Assembly (NCBI GenBank): GCA_030637515.1
Contig: DAOWGM010000158.1
Location: forward strand, 1 to 40,287
Direction: 5' to 3'
DNA length: 40,287 nucleotides
DNA from: Bacteroidales bacterium
GTDB taxonomy: Bacteria; Bacteroidota; Bacteroidia; Bacteroidales; UBA12077
Numbering within the stretch: position 1 is the stretch's first letter; the number at the start of each line of letters is the position of its first letter. The notes beneath the pieces are model-generated. The model was not told the origin of the DNA. It made no database searches and saw only the letters and a program-made list of their open reading frames with translations. This document shows positions 1,446-27,604 of this stretch, piece after piece. A program made the position numbers and the translations under genes.

Positions 1446-2366
1446 CTATCTGAAAGATAATATATCTCCTTCATTTGGCACATAAATACTATTTGTCAAT
1501 TTTTCTTTATCTATAAATTTTCTTAGTTCGTCTCTTGTTAATTTACAATGATTTATTGCGTCCATATGAGTTGCTACTATTCTTGTATCGGGCAATAATT
1601 GTGTAATGCTTTTTAAGGCATCAGATGTCAATGTTATTGGCTTACCTATAATAAATTGAGCTGCACCTGCATTAGCAATTATTAAGTTTGGTTGTGTTTC
1701 TTTTAAACTATTTTCTAACAGTTCATCCAAAATTGCATCGCCGGTAATAAATAACGATTCTTTTTTTGTTTGTATATAATAAGAAGAGGATTTACCCATT
1801 GGTTCCTGCCACATACCTTCACCATGATTTACAGAAAATCTCTTGATTGATATTTCCCCCAACTCACCTTCACTGTCAATCACCTGTACATTTGTAAATC
1901 CCTTTTCTTTTAACATTTCATCATCACCGGGTTGGCAAAATATCAACATATCTTTTGGCAATGTATTTTCTGCTTCCATGTCAAAGTGGTCAGGATGATA
2001 ATGAGTAAGTAATACTGCATCAATATCTTTAAGCAAACTGTTTTTTTCTACGGGTAACGAAATCAAAGGATTTTTGATTCGATTTGATGTTAAGGGATAA
2101 GGCGACTCAGTTCCAATATCACCGAGCATTGGATCTACAAGTATTTTTTTATTTTCTATACTAATAACTACTGTTGCATGTCTTATTAATTGTATTTTCA
2201 TTACCGTATCCTCACTACTTTCAACCACAGGAATATTTTTGAACGCAGTTAATTTGGGATTACCGGCAAATAAATCCGTTGCGAAATAAGTAACTACGGC
2301 AACCAGAATAACAATAACAGTTAATACTGTTAACAGTATTGGTTTTAACATTTTTTTAATTTTCAT
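1446..2366 (-). CDS. Membrane-anchored metallo-beta-lactamase-fold hydrolase (UlaG-like)
   Basis: The 306-aa protein starts with a Lys-rich stretch and a hydrophobic segment (about residues 10-30), probably an inner-membrane anchor or uncleaved signal, followed by a UlaG-like metallo-hydrolase domain. Visible motifs are IRHATVVI and ILVDPMLG early on, the metal-binding THYHPDHFD, a GMWQEP segment, ITGDAI, and a late ATHMDAINHC. This layout matches the RHATxxI/DP hydrolases related to L-ascorbate-6-phosphate lactonase and NAPE-PLD. I chose the second ATG (2366) over the one at 2384 because AAAGGAG lies just before it. The substrate is unknown. It sits between another metallo-hydrolase and a Crp/Fnr regulator, all on one strand, suggesting a small regulated unit. 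Confidence 0.8.
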   Translation of the reverse strand: MKIKKMLKPILLTVLTVIVILVAVVTYFATDLFAGNPKLTAFKNIPVVESSEDTVMKIQLIRHATVVISIENKKILVDPMLGDIGTESPYPLTSNRIKNPLISLPVEKNSLLKDIDAVLLTHYHPDHFDMEAENTLPKDMLIFCQPGDDEMLKEKGFTNVQVIDSEGELGEISIKRFSVNHGEGMWQEPMGKSSSYYIQTKKESLFITGDAILDELLENSLKETQPNLIIANAGAAQFIIGKPITLTSDALKSITQLLPDTRIVATHMDAINHCKLTRDELRKFIDKEKLTNSIYVPNEGDILSFR

Positions 2367-2463
2367 GATTTTCTCCTTTTGCATTATTAATTATTTAATG
2401 ATGCAAAACTATGAAGAGTTTGATTTATAAACCTGTGATATTTAGCACAAGTACAAAAAATAA

Positions 2464-3087
2464 TTAACGGATCACCTGAACTGATTTCTGTCCAAGGTTA
2501 ATCAAGCCTTCGTTTTCCAGCTTTTTTAAGAGTCTGGAAACTACTTCTCTTGTGGTGCCAAACTCATTGGCTATTTGTTGGTGAGACATCTGCAAAGTGC
2601 AATGATTTTGCAAGTTAGCTTCTTCCAGCAGATATTCTAACAAGCGTTCTTTTAAGGGTTTAAAAGCTAATTTGACGTAACGATCCATGAGCTCATTATA
2701 ATTTAGCCTAAAAGTATTAATGGTAAAATCATTCCAAGATTTGTACTTAAAAGCCCAATCTTTTATAAAACGAACAGGAATGTTAAGAATAGTAGAATCT
2801 TCTTCAGCTATTGCGTTTACAGTACTTAGATAATCGCCGAAAGTTTCAGAAAGTGAGAGTATACAAGCTTCCATTTCACTTATATAGTAAATTAAAATTT
2901 CTCTGTCTTCAGTCTCCAGGAAGACTCGCACCTTTCCTTTTAAAACAATCTTTAAAACTTTAATGTACTCTTCTGTCTTAATTAGATAATCTCCTTTTTT
3001 ATAAGTCGAAATAAAAGAATGTTGTTTAATTTCTTCCTTTAATTCCTTTTCGTAAACATTAAGTTGTTTAAAAAATGTTTCTATCAT
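2464..3087 (-). CDS. Crp/Fnr-family transcriptional regulator
   Basis: The 207-aa protein has an N-terminal cyclic-nucleotide-binding-type barrel (about residues 10-125, with KGDYLI, LKGKVRVF and ISEMEACIL) and a C-terminal winged helix. In the latter, MSHQQIANEFGTTREVVSRL (about residues 168-187) is the recognition helix-turn-helix. The FNR cysteines are not arranged as an Fe-S site, so it is not a classic oxygen-sensing FNR. Such proteins in Bacteroidota often answer to redox or other small-molecule signals. It lies about 80 bases upstream of the two metallo-hydrolase genes on the same strand and is the obvious candidate to control them. No SD precedes its start. Confidence 0.88.
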   Translation of the reverse strand: MIETFFKQLNVYEKELKEEIKQHSFISTYKKGDYLIKTEEYIKVLKIVLKGKVRVFLETEDREILIYYISEMEACILSLSETFGDYLSTVNAIAEEDSTILNIPVRFIKDWAFKYKSWNDFTINTFRLNYNELMDRYVKLAFKPLKERLLEYLLEEANLQNHCTLQMSHQQIANEFGTTREVVSRLLKKLENEGLINLGQKSVQVIR

Positions 3088-3158
3088 AATTTCAAATCAT
3101 TTGTAATGGTCTCGCATGAGCAGCATGTTGTATGATGCTGTGATTTACTTCGTGCTTT

Positions 3159-3488
3159 TTAATCGGCTTTATATTTCTTACCCCAATCATTCATTTGTTG
3201 CATTATGGGTAAAATTTTCTCTCCTTCTTTTGTCAATGAATATTCAACTTTAGGTGGAATTGTATTATATGATTTTCTATTCACTACGCCATGCTCAACA
3301 AGATCTTTTAATGACTGTGAAAGCATTTTATCATTAATTGTTACCAATGTTCGTTTCAGTTCATTAAATCTCTTTGATTGTTCTTTTAGATTCCAAATTA
3401 TTAATCCTTTCCATCTGCCACCAATCACACTTAAAGTTAAATCAACAGGACAGTAAAAAAAAGTTCCATTCAAATTGTATCGTTCCAT
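3159..3488 (-). CDS. HxlR-family winged-helix transcriptional regulator
   Basis: A 109-aa protein with the full HxlR layout: the conserved cysteine in YCPVDLTLSVIGGRWK (Cys13), FNELKRTL, the NDKMLSQSLKDL recognition helix, VEYSLTKEGE as the wing, and a final dimer helix with MNDWGKKY. Members are often redox- or electrophile-responsive repressors acting through the N-terminal cysteine. It is transcribed divergently from the lipoprotein gene at 3620. The shared intergenic region holds a strong inverted repeat (3527-3562) that is its probable operator, so it likely controls itself and that neighbour. Length is normal for the family. Confidence 0.92.
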   Translation of the reverse strand: MERYNLNGTFFYCPVDLTLSVIGGRWKGLIIWNLKEQSKRFNELKRTLVTINDKMLSQSLKDLVEHGVVNRKSYNTIPPKVEYSLTKEGEKILPIMQQMNDWGKKYKAD

Positions 3489-3526
3489 ATTTAAAATGTT
3501 TTCTCAAAAGTACTATTATTTACATT

Positions 3527-3562
3527 ACTAACCAAAATGATAGTGCTTTCATATTGGTAAGT
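3527..3562. promoter_or_regulatory. Inverted-repeat operator between hxlR-type gene and lipoprotein gene
   Basis: The left arm ACTAACCAAAATGA (3527-3540) pairs with the right arm TCATATTGGTAAGT (3549-3562) at 12 of 14 positions around an 8-base spacer. It sits in the divergent intergenic region of an HxlR regulator, where such repressors usually bind. Binding itself is inferred. Confidence 0.6.
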
Positions 3563-3588
3563 ATGTGCAATATGTAAAGTATTGTTTC

Positions 3589-3596
3589 TATTTTTG
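3589..3596 (+). promoter_or_regulatory. Candidate Bacteroidota -7 element (TATTTTTG)
   Basis: The octamer fits TAnnTTTG and ends 23 bases before the ATG at 3620. A clear -33 TTTG partner is not visible, so this is only a weak promoter call; the putative HxlR operator lies just upstream. Confidence 0.35.
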
Positions 3597-3619
3597 TATC
3601 GAATTAAAAATATAAAATC

Positions 3620-4132
3620 ATGAAAAGATTAAGTTTAGTAATTATTATGGCGGTAACAATAATGAGTTGTTCTGCACAAAACGAAGAGTTTAACAATTTA
3701 AAAAATCAAGTAGAAATGGAAAAAACACAATTAGAAAAGAACAAAGAAATTGCTTTGAATTTATCTAAAGCAATTATGAACGGAGAATGGAATAAGGTTG
3801 ATGAGCTAATTGCTGAAGATTTTACATACGAAGCAGATGGAAGACCAGCAATTGGTAAACAAGAATATATTGGATTTATGAAAAATGTTCTTAGTAATGC
3901 ATTTTCAGATATGGATATGAAGTTTCTTCGCGTTATTGCAGAAGAGAATTTAGTCGCAATTGATTACACAAATGAGATGACAAATACCGGGGATTTTATG
4001 GGAATGCCTGCAACGAACAAACGAGTATTGGCAACAGGACAATTCATCCGGGAGATAAAAGATGGTAAAATTACTGCTGAATGGCAAACTACTAATAGCG
4101 CAGGATTAATTCAACAGCTTACTGCTAAGTAA
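3620..4132 (+). CDS. NTF2/SnoaL-like lipoprotein
   Basis: The 170-aa protein begins with a lipoprotein signal peptide ending in the lipobox IMSC (Cys17), so it should be exported and lipid-anchored. A short Glu/Lys-rich coiled segment (about residues 25-45) follows, then a SnoaL/NTF2-like cone domain of about 120 residues (NGEWNKVDELIAEDFTYEAD, IGKQEYIGFMKN, AEENLVAIDYTNEMTNTGDFMGMPATNKR, ATGQFIREIKDGKITAEWQ). Such polyketide-cyclase-like folds bind or turn over small hydrophobic molecules, but no activity can be assigned. It is divergent from the HxlR regulator and probably controlled by it, which suggests a role in a small-molecule or electrophile response. A strong hairpin terminator follows. 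Confidence 0.8.
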   Translation: MKRLSLVIIMAVTIMSCSAQNEEFNNLKNQVEMEKTQLEKNKEIALNLSKAIMNGEWNKVDELIAEDFTYEADGRPAIGKQEYIGFMKNVLSNAFSDMDMKFLRVIAEENLVAIDYTNEMTNTGDFMGMPATNKRVLATGQFIREIKDGKITAEWQTTNSAGLIQQLTAK

Positions 4133-4170
4133 TTTCTTCAATTTCACATTAATCGTCCAAACCGCAAAAA

Positions 4171-4195
4171 GGGAAGCAATTAGCTTCCCTTTTTT
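4171..4195. terminator. Intrinsic terminator, usable in both directions
   Basis: GGGAAGC and GCTTCCC pair around AATTA and are followed by six Ts; the minus strand also has a T run on its other side. It ends the lipoprotein gene and could also stop transcripts from the right. Confidence 0.85.
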
Positions 4196-4213
4196 CATTT
4201 TATATATTTCAGC

Positions 4214-4380
4214 TTACTTTTTAAAAAGCACAAGCGAGAACACCTTTGTATTAAATTTTTTATAAACGGAGTAGTTAACTAAACTACGCCGAGCAGAAGA
4301 TTTTAATATTCTATGGAATTCTTCATCTGGAACTCCTGCATGTTTTTCAATCTCTCCAAATATTTACTTGGAGCATCACC
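4214..4380 (-). pseudogene. Decayed C-terminal tail of a GmrSD/DUF262-like gene
   Basis: Read on the minus strand, this stretch encodes GDAPSKYLERLK in one frame and then EKHAGVPDEEFHRILKS in the next, running to a stop at 4216-4214. The joined pattern (DAPSKYL...E..AGV....FH.IL.S) resembles the C-terminal tail of DUF262/GmrSD-type modification-dependent restriction proteins. There is a frameshift in the middle and no upstream body, so this is a remnant. It contains a degraded copy of the CACAAGCG repeat near 4229. It lies beside the Fic gene, consistent with a decayed defence locus. The family assignment rests on a short motif and is tentative. Confidence 0.4.
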
Positions 4381-9072: not shown

Positions 9073-10035
9073 TTAGTCTTTCTTTATTATTTCAATAACA
9101 TTCTCAAATGATTTCTTTACATCTTTTTCTTCCGGAATAATCTCATAGGATAATGCTGTCAATTCACTAGTGTATTTTGATTTGACATTATCCCAGATCT
9201 TATTAAACTCATTAATTAATGGAGAATCATCAATATCTTTTTCTTTCCAACCTTCAGGTTCATCAAATGCTAATTTATCATGAAGCACTAGTTCTTTGAA
9301 ATCTTCTTTAAATTTATCAGACTGAATGTATTTTGCACATTCTTCATTTGTTAGAAGAAAATGAATATCATAAAAATGTCTTATTTTACTTGCAATACTC
9401 TCGTTGACATTTTCATCAAAAGAGAAACGTATTAATGAAACTATTTTTTCAAGCAAGGTTTGCTTTTTATCCAACACATTTAAAGTAAATGATTCCAAGT
9501 CATATTTCTTGATGAGATCTTTTGAATCTGTTAGCTCCAAAAATTCAGTAATGAAACTTTTTATTTCTAGTTTATGATAAGGAAATGGATTTGCAAAGGA
9601 ATTAACTTCAATTATCAATTTATCCGATATTCCTGCACTAAATTTGAAGTTTCCAGTGAGTGGGTACGTAAATACACTTTTCCTAAATTTAGAAAACTTA
9701 CTCGTTACGCCTGAAACTTCAATTTCTGTTAAATCTTTAGAAATATCTTTTTCGACATTTCTTATTAATGTTTTAACTTGATTGCCTGACATCAATGAAG
9801 CGTTTAAAACAGCGATATCAACATCTTCCGAAAAACGTTGTATTAATTTATATGCTTTGGTTAAAGATGTTCCACCTTTGAATACAATTTCATTTGCATA
9901 TTTACTCTTCGACAAATCCTTTAAGACTCTTGTTATCCAATAATCCTTTTCAATGAAAACAGGGGGTATATTAAAGTGATCACTTGCTGCTTGAATAGCT
10001 TCTGTAAATTCTCTTTTGTTTTCGTGTAATATCAT
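9073..10035 (-). CDS. AbiEii-type nucleotidyltransferase toxin
   Basis: The 320-aa protein has the nucleotidyltransferase core of the AbiEii/AbiGii (DUF1814) toxins: FKGGTSLTKAY (residues 52-62), then EDVDIAV with the paired aspartates Asp71 and Asp73, and later helical segments with LLEKIVSLIRF and KIRHFYDIHFLL. Related toxins use NTPs to modify RNA or protein and cause reversible growth arrest; some give phage abortive infection. Its start overlaps the end of the upstream antitoxin-like gene by four bases (10032-10035), the usual translational coupling of AbiE pairs. It is probably repressed through the operator upstream of the antitoxin. The motif set is intact, so it should be active. Confidence 0.9.
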   Translation of the reverse strand: MILHENKREFTEAIQAASDHFNIPPVFIEKDYWITRVLKDLSKSKYANEIVFKGGTSLTKAYKLIQRFSEDVDIAVLNASLMSGNQVKTLIRNVEKDISKDLTEIEVSGVTSKFSKFRKSVFTYPLTGNFKFSAGISDKLIIEVNSFANPFPYHKLEIKSFITEFLELTDSKDLIKKYDLESFTLNVLDKKQTLLEKIVSLIRFSFDENVNESIASKIRHFYDIHFLLTNEECAKYIQSDKFKEDFKELVLHDKLAFDEPEGWKEKDIDDSPLINEFNKIWDNVKSKYTSELTALSYEIIPEEKDVKKSFENVIEIIKKD

Positions 10036-10757
10036 TTAATAAACCATTTTTGCTTGTTAGGTAATGTTTTTTCTGTGATTTTAAAGCTGTAGCTGGTAGC
10101 CAGATTTAATGTTTTATAAATAATTTCTGTATCTAATTCACTATTTACATTTTCAATTATAGCTCCAACTAATGTTTTAGTTGCCGGATTATATTTTAGT
10201 GCTAGTTTCATTAATAATTCCTGGTCACTTTTTTCTAAATCATTAATTATAGCTTTTAACCTAATACATGTTTTTTCGACTGTTGTGTCAGGAATTTTTT
10301 TAATATTTCGTATACTATCTAAAATTCTTAATAATGGAATGCTTTCTTTAGTAATTGTATTGGGCTGTTTTATAAATTTAATCTTATACATTCCCCTTTT
10401 TGTTGCTTTTTTCTCACGCTTAACACCAATTTGAATAGTATTATAGATTTGTGTAGTTAAACCCAATTTAGAATATATGGAATAACCGGTAATATATCCA
10501 ATAAGCTTACCATCCTTTTCTAATAAATCCTTTACAACTTGATAAACATCTGGTTTTAACTCGCCAAACTGCGATTTTTTTGGTTTATAAAATTTCCCTT
10601 TTGAAAGCTTCCTGATTTTACCTGACTTAACCATTCTATTCAATGCTTTCATCACAGCATCGGTATTATTCACTGGCAGATTAAAATCAGTATAGGTAAA
10701 AACATACCCTACTTGAAATCTATTCACCTTATCCAATACATATTCAGATACTTTCAT
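10032..10757 (-). CDS. AbiEi-like antitoxin / DUF6088-type winged-helix protein
   Basis: The 241-aa protein opens with a winged-helix segment (VFTYTDF, then DAVMKALNRMVKSGKIRKLSKGKFYKP, about residues 19-59) typical of AbiEi/DUF6088 antitoxins, followed by a larger mixed domain (GYITGYSIYSKLGLT, then CIRLKAIIND). In AbiE systems this protein represses its own promoter and neutralises the nucleotidyltransferase; the neutralisation does not need a stable complex. It is first in the two-gene unit and its stop overlaps the toxin start. A perfect 9+9 inverted repeat and a TATATTTG -7 element lie just upstream, as expected for autorepression. Confidence 0.83.
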   Translation of the reverse strand: MKVSEYVLDKVNRFQVGYVFTYTDFNLPVNNTDAVMKALNRMVKSGKIRKLSKGKFYKPKKSQFGELKPDVYQVVKDLLEKDGKLIGYITGYSIYSKLGLTTQIYNTIQIGVKREKKATKRGMYKIKFIKQPNTITKESIPLLRILDSIRNIKKIPDTTVEKTCIRLKAIINDLEKSDQELLMKLALKYNPATKTLVGAIIENVNSELDTEIIYKTLNLATSYSFKITEKTLPNKQKWFIK

Positions 10758-11866: not shown

Positions 11867-12286
11867 ATGACTGATACGCACGACAAAGAGACTCGCAGTT
11901 ATAATATGTCTAGAATAAAAAGTAGAAATACAAAACCTGAACTAATAATCAGGAAATTTCTGCATGCAAATGGATTTCGTTATCGACTAAATGCAAAAAA
12001 TCTACCTGGGAAACCTGATATCGTTTTACCAAAATATAAAACTGTTATATTCATAAATGGCTGCTTTTGGCATGGTCATGAAAATTGCAAGTACTTTGTA
12101 GTTCCAAAAACCAGAACTGAATGGTGGCTAGAAAAAATTAACAGAACAAAACTCCGCGATAAAAATGCAATAAAACTTCTGATACAGCTTGATTGGCAAG
12201 TTATTACAATTTGGGAATGTGAAATAAAGCATAATTGTGAACATAAACTAAATAAAATATTTGATTTGATTAAATCAATTGTCTAA
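11867..12286 (+). CDS. vsr: Very short patch repair endonuclease (Vsr)
   Basis: The 139-aa protein aligns with Vsr endonucleases along its length. It has MSRIKSRNTKPE near the N-terminus, PGKPDIVLPKYK with the catalytic Asp51, and GCFWHGHENC with His69 and the zinc-site residues Cys66, His71 and Cys74, and a late IWECEIK that would supply the last zinc ligand. Vsr nicks 5' of the T in T:G mismatches created when 5-methylcytosine deaminates, so it protects sequences methylated by C5 methyltransferases. It opens an operon with two such methyltransferases. Fifteen bases separate it from the controller gene. No SD is seen. The call is very secure. Confidence 0.95.
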   Translation: MTDTHDKETRSYNMSRIKSRNTKPELIIRKFLHANGFRYRLNAKNLPGKPDIVLPKYKTVIFINGCFWHGHENCKYFVVPKTRTEWWLEKINRTKLRDKNAIKLLIQLDWQVITIWECEIKHNCEHKLNKIFDLIKSIV

Positions 12287-12307
12287 ATTTGTCCAAAAGG
12301 ATTGTTC

Positions 12308-12643
12308 ATGATGGAATATTTTGGTGAGAAAATAAGAGACTTACGTATTGAACGGGATCTCCCTCTAAGAAAGGTTGCAGCTTATTTAGATATTGATACA
12401 TCAATTCTAAGTAAAATTGAAAGAGGTGAACGAGATGCTAATAGAGAACTGGTTATTAAAGCAGCCAATTTTTTCAATATAGAAGAAAAAGATTTTCTGA
12501 CAAATTTTTATAGCGATCAAGTTGCAAAAATTTTATATCAAGAGAATAATTGCGAGACTATATTAAAAGTTGCAGAAGAAAAAATAAAATATATAAAAGA
12601 AAACTCCTTAATACAAGGAAAATTAGGATTTGAAAATGAATAA
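12308..12643 (+). CDS. XRE-family controller protein of the restriction-modification operon
   Basis: A 111-aa protein with an N-terminal lambda-repressor-like helix-turn-helix (FGEKIRDLRIERDLPLRKVA, then LDIDTSILSKIERGERDANRE, about residues 4-51) and a C-terminal helical tail of about 55 residues. Classic C proteins of type II systems are only slightly smaller and have this HTH. They delay restriction while methylation is established, so a similar role is likely. I start at the ATG at 12308; a second ATG follows at once at 12311. Its stop overlaps the first methyltransferase start by eight bases, so the two are translationally coupled. Confidence 0.82.
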   Translation: MMEYFGEKIRDLRIERDLPLRKVAAYLDIDTSILSKIERGERDANRELVIKAANFFNIEEKDFLTNFYSDQVAKILYQENNCETILKVAEEKIKYIKENSLIQGKLGFENE

Positions 12644-13700
12644 GAAATTAACAGCTATAGATTTATTTTCAGGATGTGGAGGATTTTCATATGGCTTTCA
12701 ACAAGCTGGCTTCCATGTTCTATTAGGTGTAGATAATACAGAAATAGCCTTAAAAACATTTGCTAGAAACCATGATAATTCGAAGACACTAAATCTTGAC
12801 TTACACAATGATGAGGCAATTAATAAAATTGTGGAATCAACAGCAGGAAATGAAATTGATGTAATAATTGGAGGACCTCCTTGTCAAGGATTTTCATTGA
12901 CCGGAACAAGAAATGAAAATGATGAACGGAACACTCTTTTTAATGCAATGTTTCGATTAGCAAAAAGAGTTAATCCCAAAGCTATCATTATTGAAAATGT
13001 TCCCGGTTTATTAAAACTATACAATGGAAAAGCAAAAAAAGAGATAATAGAGCTTTGTGAAGAACATGGATATTCTTGTAATCCTCAATTATTATTTGCT
13101 CCTGATTATGGTGTTCCCCAAATTAGAAAAAGAGTATTTTTTGTAGCATTAAGAAAAGACTTAGGAGTATTCGAATTCCCTGAAAAACAATTTACTTCTG
13201 AAACTTACATCGGATGTAAAGCCGCGATTGACGATTTACCAGATCTAGAAAATGATTTAGGAGCTAATGAATTAAATTACGACAAGAAGCCATTAAGTAA
13301 TTATCAAAAAATGATGAGAAATGGCAACAAAGTTATTTTCAATCATGTTGGAACAAAACATACTAACCATGTAATTAATGTTATTTCCCAAGTACCTGAA
13401 GGGGGAAATCATAAGGATTTACCTCCAGGTGTTGGCGATTCAAGAAAATTTAATGAAGCTTGGACGCGATATCATAGTGAAAGACCTTCTAAAACAATAG
13501 ATACAGGGCACAGAAATCATTTTCACTATAAATGGAATAGGGTTCCTTCAGTAAGAGAAAATGCAAGACTTCAATCTTTTCCTGATGATTTTGTCTTTTT
13601 AGGTAGCAAAACAGAACAAAATAGGCAAGTTGGAAATGCAGTTCCTCCTCTCTTAGGAAAGGTTTTAGCTGAACAACTTAAAAAATATTTAATAAAATGA
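12636..13700 (+). CDS. DNA (cytosine-5-)-methyltransferase, first of two
   Basis: The 354-aa protein has the ordered C5-methyltransferase motifs: DLFSGCGGFSYGF (motif I, residues 9-21), GGPPCQGFS with the catalytic Cys83 (motif IV), IIIENVPGLL (motif VI), PQIRKRVFFVAL (motif VIII), RPSKTIDTG (motif IX) and QVGNAVPPLL (motif X). The target-recognition region lies between motifs VIII and IX and sets the site, which cannot be read from sequence. The enzyme transfers a methyl group from S-adenosylmethionine to cytosine C5. It is chained by overlaps to the controller gene before and the second methyltransferase after (ATGA at 13697-13700). I use the ATG at 12636, not the TTG at 12630. Confidence 0.96.
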   Translation: MNKKLTAIDLFSGCGGFSYGFQQAGFHVLLGVDNTEIALKTFARNHDNSKTLNLDLHNDEAINKIVESTAGNEIDVIIGGPPCQGFSLTGTRNENDERNTLFNAMFRLAKRVNPKAIIIENVPGLLKLYNGKAKKEIIELCEEHGYSCNPQLLFAPDYGVPQIRKRVFFVALRKDLGVFEFPEKQFTSETYIGCKAAIDDLPDLENDLGANELNYDKKPLSNYQKMMRNGNKVIFNHVGTKHTNHVINVISQVPEGGNHKDLPPGVGDSRKFNEAWTRYHSERPSKTIDTGHRNHFHYKWNRVPSVRENARLQSFPDDFVFLGSKTEQNRQVGNAVPPLLGKVLAEQLKKYLIK

Positions 13701-14944
13701 AGATTAATGTAATTGACTTATTTGCTGGTTGTGGAGGATTAACAGATGGCTTCCTTAAAACAAGAAAGTATAATACTTTAGCGGCTGTTGATTGGGAATT
13801 TCCGACGGTCAATACATTAAAGAATCGATTAGCAAGAAAATGGGGATATGATATGTCTAAAAACAACATTCTTCATTTTGATATTCAAAGAACAGAAGAA
13901 CTTCTTTATGGTTATAAGGATTCCAAATTCGGAATCAGCGAAGGGTTGGTAAATGTAATTAATAATTCGAAAGTTGATATTATTGTCGGAGGACCTCCTT
14001 GTCAGGCATATTCAATTGCTGGAAGAGTACGAGATAAAAATGGAATGCAAGATGATTATCGAAATTTTCTGTTTGAAAGCTACGTAAAAATGGTTAACCA
14101 TTTTAAACCACAAGCTTTCGTATTTGAAAATGTAGAAGGTATTTTAAGTGCGAAACCTGGAGGAATTTCAATAATAGACAGAGTTAGAAAAGCCTTTATA
14201 GAGATCGATTATGAAATAACTGATAATTTAAGATCCAATGCACTATTTGATACATCATATTTTGGAGTTCCTCAAAAGCGAAAAAGGGTAATTATTTATG
14301 GTGTAAAAAAAAGTAACACTAGTTCTCAAGAAATTAAAACCTTCTATTCTTTAATGAGAAGTAAAAAACAACCTTATCCAACTAATGCTAAAACTGCTTT
14401 TGAAAATTTACCAAAAATTTATCCGGTGATTAAAGAAAATGAAATAAAAAAATCTCATACTGTACGTTTGAATGGTAATCCATTACCCAAAAATCATGAG
14501 CCAAGATTTCATAGTAAACGAGATGTTAAGATTTTTGAAATACTTGCTAATGATATCCAGTGCGGAGCTAATAAATATACAAGTACTCAAGCTCTTATTC
14601 AGTTATACAAAGAACATACCGGAAAAGACTCTAAATTTCATAAATACCATGTAATTAGAGAAGATAGACCAAGCAATACCATTCCTGCTCATTTGTACAA
14701 AGATGGATTACGTCACATTCATCCAGACCCAAAACAAGCTCGTTCGATTACAGTTAGAGAAGCTGCCAGAATTCAAACTTTTGATGATGATTTTGAATTT
14801 TTAGGTTCAAGAGGAGACCAATATAAAATGATTGGTAATGCTGTACCTCCAGTATTCTCAGAACAAATAGCTTCAATTGTTTATGAATTATTTTCAAATT
14901 ATAACATAAAAAAAGAAGAATTATGCCAGACATCACACTCTTAG
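13697..14944 (+). CDS. DNA (cytosine-5-)-methyltransferase, second of two
   Basis: This 415-aa protein has its own full motif set: VIDLFAGCGGLTDGF (motif I), GGPPCQAYS with catalytic Cys102 (motif IV), FVFENVEGIL (motif VI), PQKRKRVIIYG (motif VIII), RPSNTIPAH (motif IX) and MIGNAVPPV (motif X). It differs clearly from the first enzyme, with extra sequence between motifs I and IV and a longer recognition region, so it is not a recent copy. Two C5 enzymes in one operon usually mean an asymmetric site with each enzyme methylating one strand, or two specificities. Its 3' end overlaps the next gene by 22 bases. Confidence 0.96.
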   Translation: MKINVIDLFAGCGGLTDGFLKTRKYNTLAAVDWEFPTVNTLKNRLARKWGYDMSKNNILHFDIQRTEELLYGYKDSKFGISEGLVNVINNSKVDIIVGGPPCQAYSIAGRVRDKNGMQDDYRNFLFESYVKMVNHFKPQAFVFENVEGILSAKPGGISIIDRVRKAFIEIDYEITDNLRSNALFDTSYFGVPQKRKRVIIYGVKKSNTSSQEIKTFYSLMRSKKQPYPTNAKTAFENLPKIYPVIKENEIKKSHTVRLNGNPLPKNHEPRFHSKRDVKIFEILANDIQCGANKYTSTQALIQLYKEHTGKDSKFHKYHVIREDRPSNTIPAHLYKDGLRHIHPDPKQARSITVREAARIQTFDDDFEFLGSRGDQYKMIGNAVPPVFSEQIASIVYELFSNYNIKKEELCQTSHS

Positions 14945-15345
14945 ACGCAAACGGAAATGTCCATGAAATTGCAGGATTAAATTGGGGGTCAAACCTTCAA
15001 AATCATACTACACCTATTGATGCATACATTCCAATTCATATAGAAACAATACGCAGAAATCCTGGTCTTTTTGACAAAAAAGGCCCACAACAGACTATTA
15101 TTACTCTTCATTGGGATGACAGGACTGAAATGCAAGTTTTATTTGAAGGTAACGGGACAGATGATTATCCAAAACAAATATCTTCACATCCATATAAAAA
15201 TACAATGGGAGCATATTTGAGACAAAGAATTGGTGTTGCAAATAATGAAATAATCACTATGGATCACTTAAATAATTATGGAAGAACAACTGTTACAATT
15301 CAAAGAATTGATGCTACAAATTACAACATAGACTTTCATGTTTAA
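14923..15345 (+). CDS. Stand-alone B3-like (NgoFVII C-terminal type) DNA-binding protein
   Basis: A 140-aa protein. From about residue 57 it carries a pattern I associate with the C-terminal B3-type DNA-binding domain of NgoFVII/PLD restriction enzymes: ITLHWDDRTEMQVLFEG, YPKQISSHPYKNTMGAYLR, QRIGV, MDHLNNYGRTTVTI and a final YNIDFHV strand. No nuclease motif (HxK, PD-ExK or HNH) is visible, so alone it should bind rather than cut DNA. It overlaps the second methyltransferase gene and sits nine bases before the HNH gene, so it is probably the recognition subunit of the restriction enzyme. The family match is from memory of motifs, not a search; an unrelated fold cannot be excluded. Confidence 0.6.
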   Translation: MPDITLLDANGNVHEIAGLNWGSNLQNHTTPIDAYIPIHIETIRRNPGLFDKKGPQQTIITLHWDDRTEMQVLFEGNGTDDYPKQISSHPYKNTMGAYLRQRIGVANNEIITMDHLNNYGRTTVTIQRIDATNYNIDFHV

Positions 15346-15354
15346 AACAATTAT

Positions 15355-16365
15355 ATGAGTAAATATTATATTAAAAAACTTGGGTTTCAAGAACTAGGTA
15401 GCCCAAAATCAGATGGAAGTATCTCTAGAGGGAGATATATGCTTATTTCTAAGAAGTCTGAAGATTTCTTTCCTCATTTAAGTGAAACTGAATTGAATGA
15501 CACAATAATATTACCCATTATATCGCCTGAAAATCATGAGAAAATTTATTGTTCATATGTTTTTCATAATGACAAATTCCATGGCAGTTTAGCTAAAAGT
15601 CCAAGAAACGAATATCGACTATATTTAAATTCTAAGATTGATCCTAATCGTTCTTATTTTAAACCTGATGATATAGTTGTTTTTTCTAAATATGAAGGAG
15701 AAGAAAGTATATCAACTTATCAAATGATTTTAATAAGAAAAGATCAGAGAAATTATAACGTATTAAATACAATTATTAATATTTCCCCATTAGAAGGAGG
15801 ACATGCATTATATAATGAAGAACTTGCCTTTATAGAAACAATAGCTAATAATGTTGAGTCTATTACTTCTATCGTAATTCCAGAAGAGGTAAAAAAAGAT
15901 GTTAAGAAAAAACAAGAAGAGATTAAAGAAGAGATATCAACTGATATTGAAGGCACGAAAGGTGCTAACTTATTTAATTCTGTGAGTTTCAGAGATTTCG
16001 TATTGCTTGGTTATCAAAATAAATGTGCCATTACAAATGAAGCAATATTTTATGATAAATTAATAAATCTTGAAGCAGCACATATAAGGCCTAAAGCTCA
16101 TTCTGGCTCATTTCTTCCATGCAATGGCATTGCAATGTCAAGAGATATGCATTGGGCTTTTGACAGAGGTATGTTTGCAATAAATGAAGATTATACAATT
16201 GATGTACATAAGGATGTTAAAAATTCTCTTTTGAATAGATTTGATAAACAAAAGATCAATTTACCTATCGAAGATTTCTTTAAACCAGAACCAACCTTTT
16301 TAAAATATCACAGGGAAAATATTTTTGGATTGTTTAAACATGCTGGCGTAATCAGAGCTTTGTAA
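15355..16365 (+). CDS. HNH restriction endonuclease subunit
   Basis: The 336-aa protein has an HNH_2-type nuclease domain near residues 200-290: KCAIT (Cys224), LEAAHIRP (His243), CNGIAMSRDMHWAFDRG (Asn257, His266, Asp270) and FAINEDYTI. These would form the beta-beta-alpha-metal active site that cuts DNA. Residues 1-150 are a separate unassigned module with YMLISKK, RLYLNSK and YFKPDDIVVFSK, which looks like a DNA-binding barrel (possibly B3-like). A Lys/Glu-rich linker (about residues 178-198) joins the two. It is the last gene of the operon, matching the usual methyltransferase-first order. It is most likely the cutting subunit of the restriction enzyme. Confidence 0.8.
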   Translation: MSKYYIKKLGFQELGSPKSDGSISRGRYMLISKKSEDFFPHLSETELNDTIILPIISPENHEKIYCSYVFHNDKFHGSLAKSPRNEYRLYLNSKIDPNRSYFKPDDIVVFSKYEGEESISTYQMILIRKDQRNYNVLNTIINISPLEGGHALYNEELAFIETIANNVESITSIVIPEEVKKDVKKKQEEIKEEISTDIEGTKGANLFNSVSFRDFVLLGYQNKCAITNEAIFYDKLINLEAAHIRPKAHSGSFLPCNGIAMSRDMHWAFDRGMFAINEDYTIDVHKDVKNSLLNRFDKQKINLPIEDFFKPEPTFLKYHRENIFGLFKHAGVIRAL

Positions 16366-21756: not shown

Positions 21757-23964
21757 TTATGTGATCTCCAATGCAAACGATGCAGTTTCTCTGTAGTCGT
21801 AGCTTTGAATTCGTGAAATGCCTGTAAAGTGCTTCGCATGCACGCGCAGTGTAACGCTAAAAGTGCATTTCGATAGTACCTCACCTGTAGCAGTATTTGT
21901 TAACATGTTCTCAAAAGTCTCGCTACCGGAGGTTACTGCTTCTCCTGTTTCGCCCACATCAGTGTGGTAGGTATCTCCAGTTGGTGGCGAAAGCGCTCCT
22001 ACAGCACCGTTCAAACCACGCTGCCATTTTATGCTGTATTGCCACATGAAAGAATTGTTGTCGCCATTGCCGTCATGTTCAACCCCATTTTCATGAAAGG
22101 CACGGAAGCCTATTGCAAATTTATGATTCCTATTACCGGTCATAAACTGACATTCTTCATCATTTGAAGAATTGTTTTTACGCAAATCAACAATATCTCC
22201 GGCCACGGGTGTATTATCAATCCAAAAAATATGAGCCATATCAGCAAAAGGTACCGGATCAGTATCTACGGCTGAAACCCATCGACGGAACTGGAAATTT
22301 TGCTCTGTTTCTGATCCTGTTGCACCATTCGGCATTATGCGATTTCCTGCTGAATTAAAGACCTCGATAACCAACATATATTTCCCATCAGTAAACTGTG
22401 GATGTGTTGTGTCCCATATTTGATGGCACTGTCCACTCATGTAACGATGGTTTGGTGAACTCCAGTATGGAACTTTAAATAAATTATTCTGAGCACCAAC
22501 GGATACTGGCCCGAGTGTCTCAGGAACGCGAATCAAGTCGCCCGGAATGTCCTTAAGCTTGTCCCATGTAACCGTATTATTTAATAAAACTGGTAGACCA
22601 ACAGGTGAACCTGCTTCATTAACTGCAAAGACCTTTAACCTATAATAATGTACAATATCCTTTAATTCAGGGGAGAACCATAAGCGTAATCTCAATGCAC
22701 CACCCCAAGGGCAGTCGGGTGCATCATTTGTCGTGTATGTACCATCATTTGGATCTAATGTTTCAACTTGAGTTTCTCCATTTTGATTTGGAAAATTAAA
22801 ATGGAATGTGCCATGTTTACCTATGTGCTCTAGCATAACAAACGAATTACCCTCATTTGGAGGCGGATCACCCGGGCCATCAGCGCACACTATAGCTAGT
22901 GGGTTGTAAGTTTTGATATCTGCTGATCCACAAGCTGAGAAATACTCATGCGCTGCCAGACCATCATAAACTGTAGTTAAAACTCCATTGATCAATTGTT
23001 TAACCTTGTAAGCATAGGTAGTAAAACAGTGTCCATAATGCAAGGGATAATGGGGATAATAATGTATGTGCCTATAACAGAAATCAAATTTACCACCAGG
23101 TTTAATCGGAGTTTGACCGACTTTGCGCACCGTACAGTGACAAATTATTGTACGCAAATAAGGACGTTCGAGTATGTACAAGCGAGCTGCATCGGCACTC
23201 ATGGTCCTTAATGTAAGGTAATCATTAAAGAGGTTCTCTGATGGGATCGCAGCAAAATCGAGAGGTACTTTACGTCGCTGTATATCACGCACTTTGGCAC
23301 GCATCAATAGTGGTGTGAAAGGTTCAGGATCGGGTCCCGGGATTGGATCCCAAGGTGGATCAGGTATAGGAATCGGCAGAACTTCTAAGAGTTCTCGCAA
23401 TCGATCAAGTAATGTTTGAATATGAATGTGATGACAGCAGCATTCGCGTTCATATATCTCAATAATTCCATCACACATTGGCAAACATTTATAGGGAAAT
23501 CCAATATGAGGCTGCATTTCTGCTGAAATTGGCATGATACGCGCCACTTGTGCCAGCTCATACATAGGCGCGAATCTATTATCACCTATCAGTTCCCAGT
23601 ACCATGGGCGGCACTTACGTACAGTTCCATTAACACAGACATAATGATAATAAAAACAATCCCAAATATTGCGTGGTAACACAATTCCTTGTTTCCGCCA
23701 AAGTTCGATGTTTTGCTCTACCCGATAACTTGCCAGACTCTTCTTGGGAAGCGTTTTGAAATCGTCAATATCAGGTCCGAATGCAATCAATTTGACATTG
23801 CTAAAATCAATCTTTAATTTCTTGTCTTTGTAGCCACCAAGTTTCTTAACAGGATGTCCACCGACATCAAGCTGGTAGACCGCAATTTGCGGTGCTTTCT
23901 CATCGTCCTTTAGATCAACAAAAGTGACCTTAAGATCAATCATTTTTTCCTTAGGTTTTGCCAT
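21757..23964 (-). CDS. Large His/Cys/Pro-rich protein of unknown function
   Basis: The 735-aa protein has no signal peptide. Visible parts are a beta-rich N-terminal domain (residues 1-125, ending CFYYHYVCVNGTVRKCRPWYW), a Cys/His cluster ECCCHHIHI (residues 174-182), a Pro/Asp-rich linker (residues 196-217), and a second Cys/His segment ICHCTVRK...CYRHIHYYPHYPLHYGHC (residues 274-313). A long beta-rich C-terminal half follows, with repeated Trp/Asn/Gly strands. The clusters could bind metal. I recognise no family. A strong SD (AAGGAGGAAAT) precedes the ATG, and the gene is richer in G and C than its neighbours; both are unusual here and suggest transfer. It is the main gene of a 4-5 gene cluster. 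Confidence 0.6.
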   Translation of the reverse strand: MAKPKEKMIDLKVTFVDLKDDEKAPQIAVYQLDVGGHPVKKLGGYKDKKLKIDFSNVKLIAFGPDIDDFKTLPKKSLASYRVEQNIELWRKQGIVLPRNIWDCFYYHYVCVNGTVRKCRPWYWELIGDNRFAPMYELAQVARIMPISAEMQPHIGFPYKCLPMCDGIIEIYERECCCHHIHIQTLLDRLRELLEVLPIPIPDPPWDPIPGPDPEPFTPLLMRAKVRDIQRRKVPLDFAAIPSENLFNDYLTLRTMSADAARLYILERPYLRTIICHCTVRKVGQTPIKPGGKFDFCYRHIHYYPHYPLHYGHCFTTYAYKVKQLINGVLTTVYDGLAAHEYFSACGSADIKTYNPLAIVCADGPGDPPPNEGNSFVMLEHIGKHGTFHFNFPNQNGETQVETLDPNDGTYTTNDAPDCPWGGALRLRLWFSPELKDIVHYYRLKVFAVNEAGSPVGLPVLLNNTVTWDKLKDIPGDLIRVPETLGPVSVGAQNNLFKVPYWSSPNHRYMSGQCHQIWDTTHPQFTDGKYMLVIEVFNSAGNRIMPNGATGSETEQNFQFRRWVSAVDTDPVPFADMAHIFWIDNTPVAGDIVDLRKNNSSNDEECQFMTGNRNHKFAIGFRAFHENGVEHDGNGDNNSFMWQYSIKWQRGLNGAVGALSPPTGDTYHTDVGETGEAVTSGSETFENMLTNTATGEVLSKCTFSVTLRVHAKHFTGISRIQSYDYRETASFALEIT

Positions 23965-24066
23965 TTCAATTTCCTCCTTTATTTTATTGAATTTAATTGA
24001 TAATCTTTTCTTTTAAATAATATCCCTCCAATAAATGGAGAACCAAATTCCTTAAAACTGGAATTA

Positions 24067-26713: not shown

Positions 26714-27067
26714 TTATTCTATTATATTATCTTCTTCAAGAGGAATATATTGAAATGGCAAATCCAAAGCTTCAGACATAATTTGACCTTCTTCTAACTG
26801 GTCTTCGTCATCGGGATGATAATACCAGTTTATAATTATGTTGACACCCTGCTTTTGTATCTTTTTGAATCTAGCCAATAGCTCATAAATAATTTTGGCA
26901 GTAGCTGTGTTAAAATAGTCGAAATTATCAATAAATTCAAAAACAGGTCCGTAAAAATCAATAGCATTGGCTGGTTTAGAAACTTTTAGAAAGCTTAAGG
27001 TATTATTCGCAATATCGAAATTAATTTCGGGAGTAAAAGTTGTTGATTCAATTTTTAATGAATTCAT
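26714..27067 (-). CDS. SiaC-like (DUF1987) protein with 19-residue internal deletion
   Basis: The 117-aa protein matches its neighbour at 27209-27604 almost throughout (MNSLKIE.TTFTPEINFDI, TLSFLKVSKP, DYFNTATAKIIYEL, IINWYYHP) but lacks 19 residues present there between FIDNF and DYFNTA. The missing part is the strand-helix segment in the middle of the fold. SiaC-family proteins are phosphorylated on a Ser/Thr next to the YFNT motif and control a diguanylate cyclase in Pseudomonas; that site is kept here. I start at the ATG at 27067. The deletion likely changes or abolishes the fold, so this is a decaying or altered duplicate. Confidence 0.75.
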   Translation of the reverse strand: MNSLKIESTTFTPEINFDIANNTLSFLKVSKPANAIDFYGPVFEFIDNFDYFNTATAKIIYELLARFKKIQKQGVNIIINWYYHPDDEDQLEEGQIMSEALDLPFQYIPLEEDNIIE

Positions 27068-27131
27068 GAAAATAAATGTAAGTTCAGGTATTTCCCATAT
27101 ACGCAAAAGTTAGAAAATGTTTACAAAAACC

Positions 27132-27208: not shown

Positions 27209-27604
27209 TTATTCTTCCAGTATTTTATAATTAAAAGGCAAATCCAGAGATTCCGACATAATTTCGCCTTCTTCAAGCAAATCATCGTCTTCAGGATGAT
27301 AATACCAGTTTATGATTACATTAACTCCTTGCTCCTGAATATTTTTAAATTTCTCTAGTAATTCGTAAATAATTTTGGCTGTGGCTGTATTAAAATAGTC
27401 GAAGTTAAAATCGATAACCAGTTCTTTTGCAATTTTCGATTTTACTTTTGATTTTTCGAAATTATCAATAAATTCAAAAACTGGTTTGTAAAAATCAATG
27501 GCATTGCCAGGTTTGGAAACTTTTAAAAAGCTTAAAGTATTATTTGTAATATCGAAATTAATTTCGGGAGTAAAAGTTGTTGCTTCTATTTTTAATGAAT
27601 TCAT
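27209..27604 (-). CDS. SiaC-like (DUF1987) regulatory phosphoprotein
   Basis: The 131-aa protein has the full DUF1987 pattern: MNSLKIEATTFTPEINFD (strands 1-2), FLKVSKPGNAIDFYKPVFEF, FEKSKVKSKIAKELVIDFNF (the segment missing in the neighbour), DYFNTATAKIIYELL with the regulatory phosphorylation site, and NVIINWYYHPEDDDLLEEGE. In the Pseudomonas SiaABCD pathway, SiaC is phosphorylated by the SiaB kinase and dephosphorylated by SiaA, and controls SiaD; in Bacteroidota the partners differ. It is the ancestral-looking, complete copy, next to its shortened duplicate and a STAS gene. The duplication extends into the upstream DNA (27629-27690 resembles 27093-27150). Confidence 0.85.
   Translation of the reverse strand: MNSLKIEATTFTPEINFDITNNTLSFLKVSKPGNAIDFYKPVFEFIDNFEKSKVKSKIAKELVIDFNFDYFNTATAKIIYELLEKFKNIQEQGVNVIINWYYHPEDDDLLEEGEIMSESLDLPFNYKILEE

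Follow-up and report, generated by a model that had tools for sequence, protein, structure and literature searches.

A putative B3-HNH restriction enzyme and a stand-alone B3 protein in a two-methyltransferase operon of a Bacteroidales bacterium

In contig DAOWGM010000158.1 of a Bacteroidales bacterium (assembly GCA_030637515.1; the whole stretch analysed, 40,287 nucleotides (nt), is called the window), an operon at 11867-16365 encodes a Vsr endonuclease, an XRE-family regulator, two C5 cytosine methyltransferases (M1 and M2), a protein of 140 amino acids (aa) and a 336-aa protein with an HNH nuclease motif (the HNH protein). The question raised by this locus is which chain reads the DNA site that is cut. 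The original prediction, made from the letters of the DNA, assigned recognition to the 140-aa protein and cutting to the HNH protein, as two subunits of one nuclease. We consider it probable that the HNH protein is instead a self-sufficient B3-HNH restriction enzyme, and that the 140-aa protein, rather than being required, is an accessory reader that recognises the same site in trans and modulates cleavage.

A predicted B3 domain in the HNH protein

The HNH protein had been proposed as the likely cutting module, and this held: it matched HNH_2 over residues 224-277, in an HNH part of residues ~204-330. The region before it had been overlooked. An alignment of 15 family members revealed a conserved N-terminal domain preceding the HNH half, and residues ~1-155 are predicted to form a B3 domain. 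The AlphaFold2 (AF2) model of the protein had a mean predicted local distance difference test score (pLDDT) of 79 and a predicted template modelling score (pTM) of 0.53; because of this pTM, the domain arrangement in the model is unreliable. In Foldseek searches the B3 side matched BfiI-C (1.1e-6), LlaJI.R1-N (H. pylori, 6c5d; 9.1e-6), EcoRII-N (1.1e-5) and UbaLAI (2.5e-5), with expectation values (E) between 1e-6 and 4e-5 overall, and the HNH side matched VcaM4I (8.1e-6) and TagI (1.2e-4). A B3-like fold, as in readers of the EcoRII-N/BfiI-C type, is predicted in the nuclease chain itself; where the EcoRII-C nuclease domain was looked for, HNH_2 only was found in the HNH protein, which places it outside the EcoRII (Type IIE) class. 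Pfam EcoRII-N was matched by one of the 15 family members (8.7e-4), and a BfiI_DBD hit among the relatives (0.11) ranked below unrelated families and was discounted. The match to NF045808 (1e-20) covered residues 162-324 and scored 74 bits, where the family cut-off is 180. A profile of the HNH protein matched 78 of 296 genomes of the phylum; its full span was covered only in the window's own genome, most of the others matching the HNH half, and no match at 80% cover was found in plasmids or phages. On the strength of the model, the HNH protein is probably a self-contained B3-HNH enzyme. We also considered that its B3 might be a copy of that of the 140-aa protein; profile comparison found no sequence similarity, with low power because the 140-aa profile comprises three sequences. 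In another genome (G203, contig C75, 21664-21927, minus strand), a 146-aa frame matched only the N-terminal (B3) part of the HNH profile (E 4.3e-5) and is possibly another stand-alone reader, of the HNH-type B3 lineage.

Scanning genome contigs with the HNH protein yielded 19 loci, whose gene content was determined by BLAST on their frames. In 16 of them the HNH gene has a long M1 frame as its neighbour, with M1 pieces in a 17th (L019), and in 15 it has both M1 and M2. The 140-aa gene was found in two loci only (L002 and L003); of the 15 loci that combine the HNH gene with both methyltransferases, 13 lack it. A profile built from the stand-alone B3 proteins of the window, L002 and L003 detected no further stand-alone copy in the 19 loci. 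In L005, close to the window (HNH proteins 70% identical), M2 and the HNH gene overlap directly and the 140-aa gene is absent. At the level of genomes, the family of the 140-aa protein, PF20731, was matched in three of 19 (the stand-alone copies of L002 and L003, plus a 381-aa frame of the L010 genome, outside the locus) and gave no match in the other 16, as draft assemblies. Some loci are incomplete: the contig of L012 ends before M2, L007, L018 and L019 contain only partial or broken pieces, and in L020 the HNH frame is split. A draft genome of the Rikenellaceae (L006) has an XRE-like segment and M1 in one 456-aa frame (655-2025), and M2 and the B3-HNH enzyme in one 811-aa frame (1877-4312). 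This may be a methyltransferase fused naturally to a nuclease, unless the assembly is in error, which is conceivable because a single draft genome is concerned.

The loci with and without the 140-aa gene allowed the B3 of the HNH protein to be compared between the two contexts. Sixteen columns of the N-terminal domain are invariant in 12 aligned relatives that lack the 140-aa gene, and the window, L002 and L003 retain every one of these. Identity to the window over this domain is 102/153 in L002, which has the 140-aa gene, versus 97/153 in L005, which does not; it is 72/152 in L003 versus 75/152 in both L004 and L015, again without the gene. As far as sequences can tell, the B3 of the HNH protein shows no relaxation in loci that have the 140-aa gene. 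These data bear directly on a split restriction enzyme, in which the 140-aa B3 would recognise the site and the HNH protein cut it, as two subunits. The two genes are adjacent, M2 and the 140-aa gene share 22 nt in both the window and L002, and LlaJI provides a precedent for a separate reader and cutter (PMC1459862). Against these points stand the HNH protein's own predicted B3, which is as conserved here as in relatives lacking the 140-aa gene, the lack of that gene in most loci with the full set and the lack of PF20731 in 16 of the 19 genomes. The two-part nuclease of the original prediction was thus not upheld, and we regard it as unlikely; because of the LlaJI precedent, with its separate R1 and R2, we retain for the 140-aa protein an accessory or conditional role that it may play, by analogy, with the HNH enzyme.

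The stand-alone B3 protein

PF20731 (RE_NgoFVII_C) spans residues 4-130 of the 140-aa protein and scored 88.2 bits against a gathering threshold of 23.8; it was the only family matched, the PLD domain PF09565 being absent. The original prediction had called a stand-alone domain of this type unusual, and such proteins are indeed rare in the genomes searched. PF20731 was matched in 11 of 296 phylum genomes, and the 10 besides the window's own are frames of 330-449 aa, with PF09565 in four of the five long proteins scanned. Two further sets gave three of 289 and seven of 295 genomes (own included; the second set partly overlaps the first), and neither contained an intact stand-alone copy beyond the window's; two of the matches were broken pieces (L239, L241). 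A direct scan of viral contigs found no relative of the 140-aa protein, and among 72,556 plasmid records it matched one, Lactococcus lactis p275D, within a PLD domain protein. In the Protein Data Bank (PDB), its profile matched only R.NgoAVII (spelled R.NgoVII in the entry), at E 0.093.

The three stand-alone copies are 54-62% identical and share 65 invariant positions. Between the window and L002, nonsynonymous divergence (dN) is 0.31 and synonymous divergence (dS) 0.93 (dN/dS ~0.33); between the window and L003, dN is 0.43 and dS 3.2, which is saturated (dN/dS 0.14), and the third pair was not computable. These sequence comparisons give signs of purifying selection on the stand-alone B3. They also speak against the gene being a functionless fossil of a displaced PLD-B3 nuclease, as do the intactness of all three copies and the 22-nt overlap with M2 kept in L002, though not in L003. 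Such a fossil would account for the nearest outside relatives, which are reader halves of PLD-B3 nucleases that accompany M1-M2 relatives, for the decayed PF20731 pieces of L239 and L241 and for the absence of the gene from the close relative L005; taken with the evidence for selection, we judge it rather unlikely.

The 140-aa protein and its stand-alone relatives were compared with PLD-B3 proteins over 142 trimmed columns. The three stand-alone proteins have a mean identity of 37% (33-41%) to four PLD-B3 readers associated with M1-M2 relatives, and of 24% (18-34%) to ten other PLD-B3 readers; the four associated readers occupy the top four ranks for each of the three. The motifs WDD-T-M and YPKQ are common to the stand-alone and M1-M2-associated readers and absent from the other PLD-B3 proteins. 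In an unrooted tree of B3 domains the ten others split off with an ultrafast bootstrap (UFBoot) of 90, and midpoint rooting groups the stand-alone proteins with the M1-M2-associated readers. The other PLD-B3 proteins have, where one was seen upstream, a single adjoining C5 methyltransferase that is 24-36% identical to M1. The reader thus tracks the methyltransferase pair in identities, motifs and tree, and the stand-alone B3 therefore most likely reads the M1-M2 site. The pairwise identities and the 16-column conservation test, which is not circular, make the argument for a shared site stronger.

A different role would be that of a methylation-sensing regulator of the operon, with the 140-aa B3 binding unmethylated sites in the promoter region like plant B3 transcription factors. 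The weak and non-significant Foldseek matches of the 140-aa model include plant B3 domains, and LlaJI expression is said to be controlled via sites in its own promoter (PMC11779793); the operon already has an XRE regulator, and we consider such a role of the 140-aa protein unlikely.

Relatives of the methyltransferase pair and their nucleases

If the stand-alone B3 follows M1 and M2, the nucleases found with relatives of this pair are of interest. M2 is itself uncommon in the genomes searched: its profile was passed at 1e-90 by two of 395 phylum genomes (the window's own and a weaker one) and at 1e-80 by one of 398 genomes around L013 (L013's own). Plasmid p275D (NZ_CP016702) carries relatives of M1 (62.5%) and M2 (54.1%), an XRE-type gene and, convergent to the methyltransferase genes, a 349-aa PLD-B3 protein; its B3 and the 140-aa protein have 36% identity (5e-22 when four sequences were compared). 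In viral contigs, scans were followed for the best 80 of 90 loci with M2 and the best 80 of at least 551 with M1; 19 of the former and 21 of the latter were looked at, plus L071. The 13 top-ranking matches to M2 (L073-L085, all with E of 2e-104 or better) include a B3-HNH gene in two (L074 and L073, apparently the contig of L013), a PLD-B3 gene in three (L076, L078 and L079, the last also with Vsr) and a large AAA+-like gene after M2 in eight (L075-L078, L080-L082, L085); L083 and L084 have only a weakly similar second methyltransferase. Pfam AAA_5 was matched by all six large genes tested and RE_LlaJI by both following genes tested; for L076 and L081, the assignment of the large gene rests on similarity to those. 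Nucleases of at least three unrelated kinds (B3-HNH, PLD-B3 and AAA+/LlaJI-type) thus accompany relatives of M1-M2, an observation that is new here. In two cases nucleases are stacked, one M1-M2 pair being accompanied by both PLD-B3 and an AAA+/LlaJI-type gene pair (L076, 1-8380; L078, 3457-11809). M1 relatives were also seen near BpuJI_N (PF11564) proteins, a further kind of nuclease (L065, 3523-6053, 52%; L066, 4992-8379, 47%).

In a tree built from concatenated M1 and M2 sequences, with 26 loci labelled HNH, PLD, AAA or PLD+AAA, the nuclease label changes five times by parsimony, compared with a mean of 8.6 and a minimum of 6 in 1000 shuffles, which indicates that nuclease labels are clustered but have been exchanged. 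With bounds drawn by eye at residues 210-306, the M1 recognition regions of the window and p275D are 79% identical, versus 55% for the rest of M1; among the 26 loci, the region closest to that of p275D is the window's. For the HNH loci L013 and L016 the closest M1 recognition region is that of L077, an AAA+ locus (82% and 84%). Those of L082 (45%) and L085 (49%) have diverged and L080 groups with them; these three may not share the target. Tentatively, and with more doubt than confidence, one may see M1-M2 as a shared passport for one sequence, under which unrelated nucleases are exchanged or stacked, and in which, in this lineage, a reader separated from its PLD cutter and maintained on its own acts in trans on an unrelated second B3-guided nuclease, giving two independent readers of one site.

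GACGC, the LlaJI/HgaI site, was considered as the target and not adopted. The HgaI-type MhoVI pair consists of enzymes of 362 and 358 aa (PMC12376442), from which M2 of the window, with 415 aa, differs in size, and in L170 and L171, with two M1-like enzymes each, the recognition regions are only 35-38% identical to that of the window's M1. No site is proposed because of the two ~360-aa enzymes of the MhoVI pair and the divergence of these regions. Loci of N. gonorrhoeae and Campylobacter with weaker methyltransferase matches led nowhere.

The operon, known systems and a possible mechanism

The six frames were found intact on one strand (Table 1), and the overlaps noted in the original prediction are real, as are its Vsr, XRE regulator and two C5 methyltransferases in scans of Pfam, NCBIfam and PADLOC. 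Three neighbouring pairs overlap: besides M2 and the 140-aa gene, M1 and M2 by 4 nt and the XRE gene and M1 by 14 nt, or 8 nt if M1 starts at ATG 12636. The XRE and M1 frames open with TTG, with ATGs a few codons in (~12308/12311 for XRE). The TIGR00632 score of Vsr is above the curated cut-off of 97.85, and XRE relatives occupy the same position in L002 (28%) and L003 (44%). An AbiE-like type IV toxin-antitoxin pair adjoins the operon and suggests a small defence cluster. Elsewhere in the window lie a Fic/DOC family gene, two SiaC-family tandem paralogs of very similar sequence and a gene without Pfam match in a stretch of raised G+C (0.41 at 22000-24000, against 0.25-0.36 in the remaining 2-kb steps). 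No tRNA was found in the window by ARAGORN, and no Rfam family at gathering score.

Table 1. Genes of the operon and other features of the window
Feature	Position	Strand	Evidence
Vsr mismatch/nicking endonuclease, 139 aa	11867..12286	+	PF03852 2e-35; TIGR00632 144.9 bits
XRE-family helix-turn-helix (HTH) regulator, putative controller, 113 aa from TTG	12302..12643	+	HTH_3 2.9e-10
M1, C5 cytosine methyltransferase, 356 aa from TTG	12630..13700	+	PF00145 (DNA_methylase) 4.7e-72
M2, C5 cytosine methyltransferase, 415 aa	13697..14944	+	PF00145 (DNA_methylase) 8.3e-56
Stand-alone B3 (NgoFVII_C type), probable accessory DNA reader, 140 aa	14923..15345	+	PF20731 6.1e-25
Putative restriction endonuclease, B3-HNH, 336 aa	15355..16365	+	HNH_2 7.8e-10; AF2; Foldseek
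AbiE-like type IV toxin-antitoxin pair	9073..10035, 10032..10757	-	AbiEii PF08843 1.2e-29; DUF6088, weak AbiEi_4
Fic/DOC family protein, 522 aa	4396..5964	-	PF02661 4.9e-13
SiaC-family tandem paralogs	26714..27106, 27209..27604	-	PF09345
Protein of 735 aa	21757..23964	-	

CglI and NgoAVII resemble the operon in having a B3 of the PF20731 kind (the family search had matches in C. glutamicum) and a C5 methyltransferase. Their R protein is a PLD-B3 chain, and the isolated B3 domains of R.CglI and R.NgoAVII are monomers that bind the site (PMC4267653). In contrast, the B3 of the window is separate and without PLD, there are two methyltransferases instead of one and the cutter is an HNH protein. 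The helicase-like N protein of NgoAVII/CglI was found neither in the six operon proteins nor in ten other scanned window proteins; with no PLD fused to the B3 and no helicase found, the operon falls outside this type. Plasmid p275D is likewise similar in its M1 and M2 relatives, XRE-type gene and related B3 and differs in that its PLD-B3 is a single chain on the opposite strand, with no HNH gene among 14 surrounding features. It is described as a complete Type II system in PMC6458302, where the text available names p275D and gives no motif.

LlaJI (GACGC) has a reader, R1, which binds the site, and a cutter, R2, which holds the catalytic motif (PMC1459862). It shares with the window two C5 methyltransferases, and the N-terminal structure of LlaJI.R1 (6c5d) is the one that fold-matches the B3 of the HNH protein; its reader and cutter are separate subunits, and LlaJI-type genes pair with M1-M2 relatives in viral contigs. 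Its McrC-like cutter and AAA+/GTPase partner contrast with the B3-HNH protein, and neither an AAA+ R1 nor a PF09563 R2 was found in the six operon proteins, so that the operon is not of LlaJI type. EcoRII, UbaLAI and BfiI have, like the HNH protein, a B3 in the nuclease chain, whereas the nuclease is PD-(D/E)XK in EcoRII and PLD in BfiI. VcaM4I, TagI and NF045808 (restriction of phosphorothioated DNA) share the C-terminal HNH half; unlike them, the window has a B3 as reader and an operon with its own methyltransferases, and its enzyme should therefore cut unmodified DNA. For the two-methyltransferase, two-nuclease system of C. cellulovorans, no motif is given in the available parts of PMC11779793 and PMC12287153. 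Titles and abstract openings retrieved in literature searches named no B3-HNH enzyme and no stand-alone NgoFVII_C protein, an outcome that does not prove that none has been described.

With M1, M2 and the B3-HNH protein in one operon, the gene content is that of a Type II system. We propose that the operon would be a complete Type II restriction-modification system with a site-specific nuclease and a probably asymmetric, C-containing target, of which M1 and M2 would methylate one strand each. Vsr would repair the T:G mismatches that follow deamination of 5-methylcytosine, and the XRE protein probably times expression. The HNH protein alone would be the restriction enzyme, its N-terminal B3 reading the unmethylated site and its C-terminal HNH cutting. 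The 140-aa protein, of a different B3 lineage, would be a dispensable second reader, most likely of the same site; its ancestor would be the reader half of a PLD-B3 nuclease serving M1-M2 relatives, or one common to both. Its effect could go either way. As an allosteric helper, it would act as the effector domain of EcoRII does in cis (PMC4081073); as a competitor, it would soften the enzyme during establishment.

A number of observations weigh against this scheme. Firstly, a PDB sequence search with the N-terminal profile of the HNH protein gave no match, so that its B3 assignment rests mainly on fold. Secondly, the B3 type claimed for the 140-aa protein in the original prediction was confirmed at the level of family, not of structure: the AF2 model was poor (pLDDT 59.5) and Foldseek found no match at E<=0.001, so that this identity relies on Pfam. 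Conservation of the stand-alone B3 is thin because no more than three intact copies were found (window, L002 and L003), and the comparison genomes are largely drafts. Thirdly, the recognition region of M2 (236-350) is 56% identical between the window and p275D and the rest 53%; as it is no better conserved, it is M1 that supports a shared target. The unrooted B3 tree also parts the three stand-alone proteins from all PLD-B3 proteins (UFBoot 97), and this split and the M2 result make the argument for a shared site slightly weaker. Finally, the tree used for nuclease exchange has weak nodes (44-74).

The B3-HNH architecture is one of which the best matches in Pfam, NCBIfam and PADLOC cover only the HNH half. 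The stand-alone reader offers a clean test case for a specificity domain that may regulate a restriction enzyme in trans, and the exchange of nucleases around one methyltransferase pair offers several enzymes that may cut one site.

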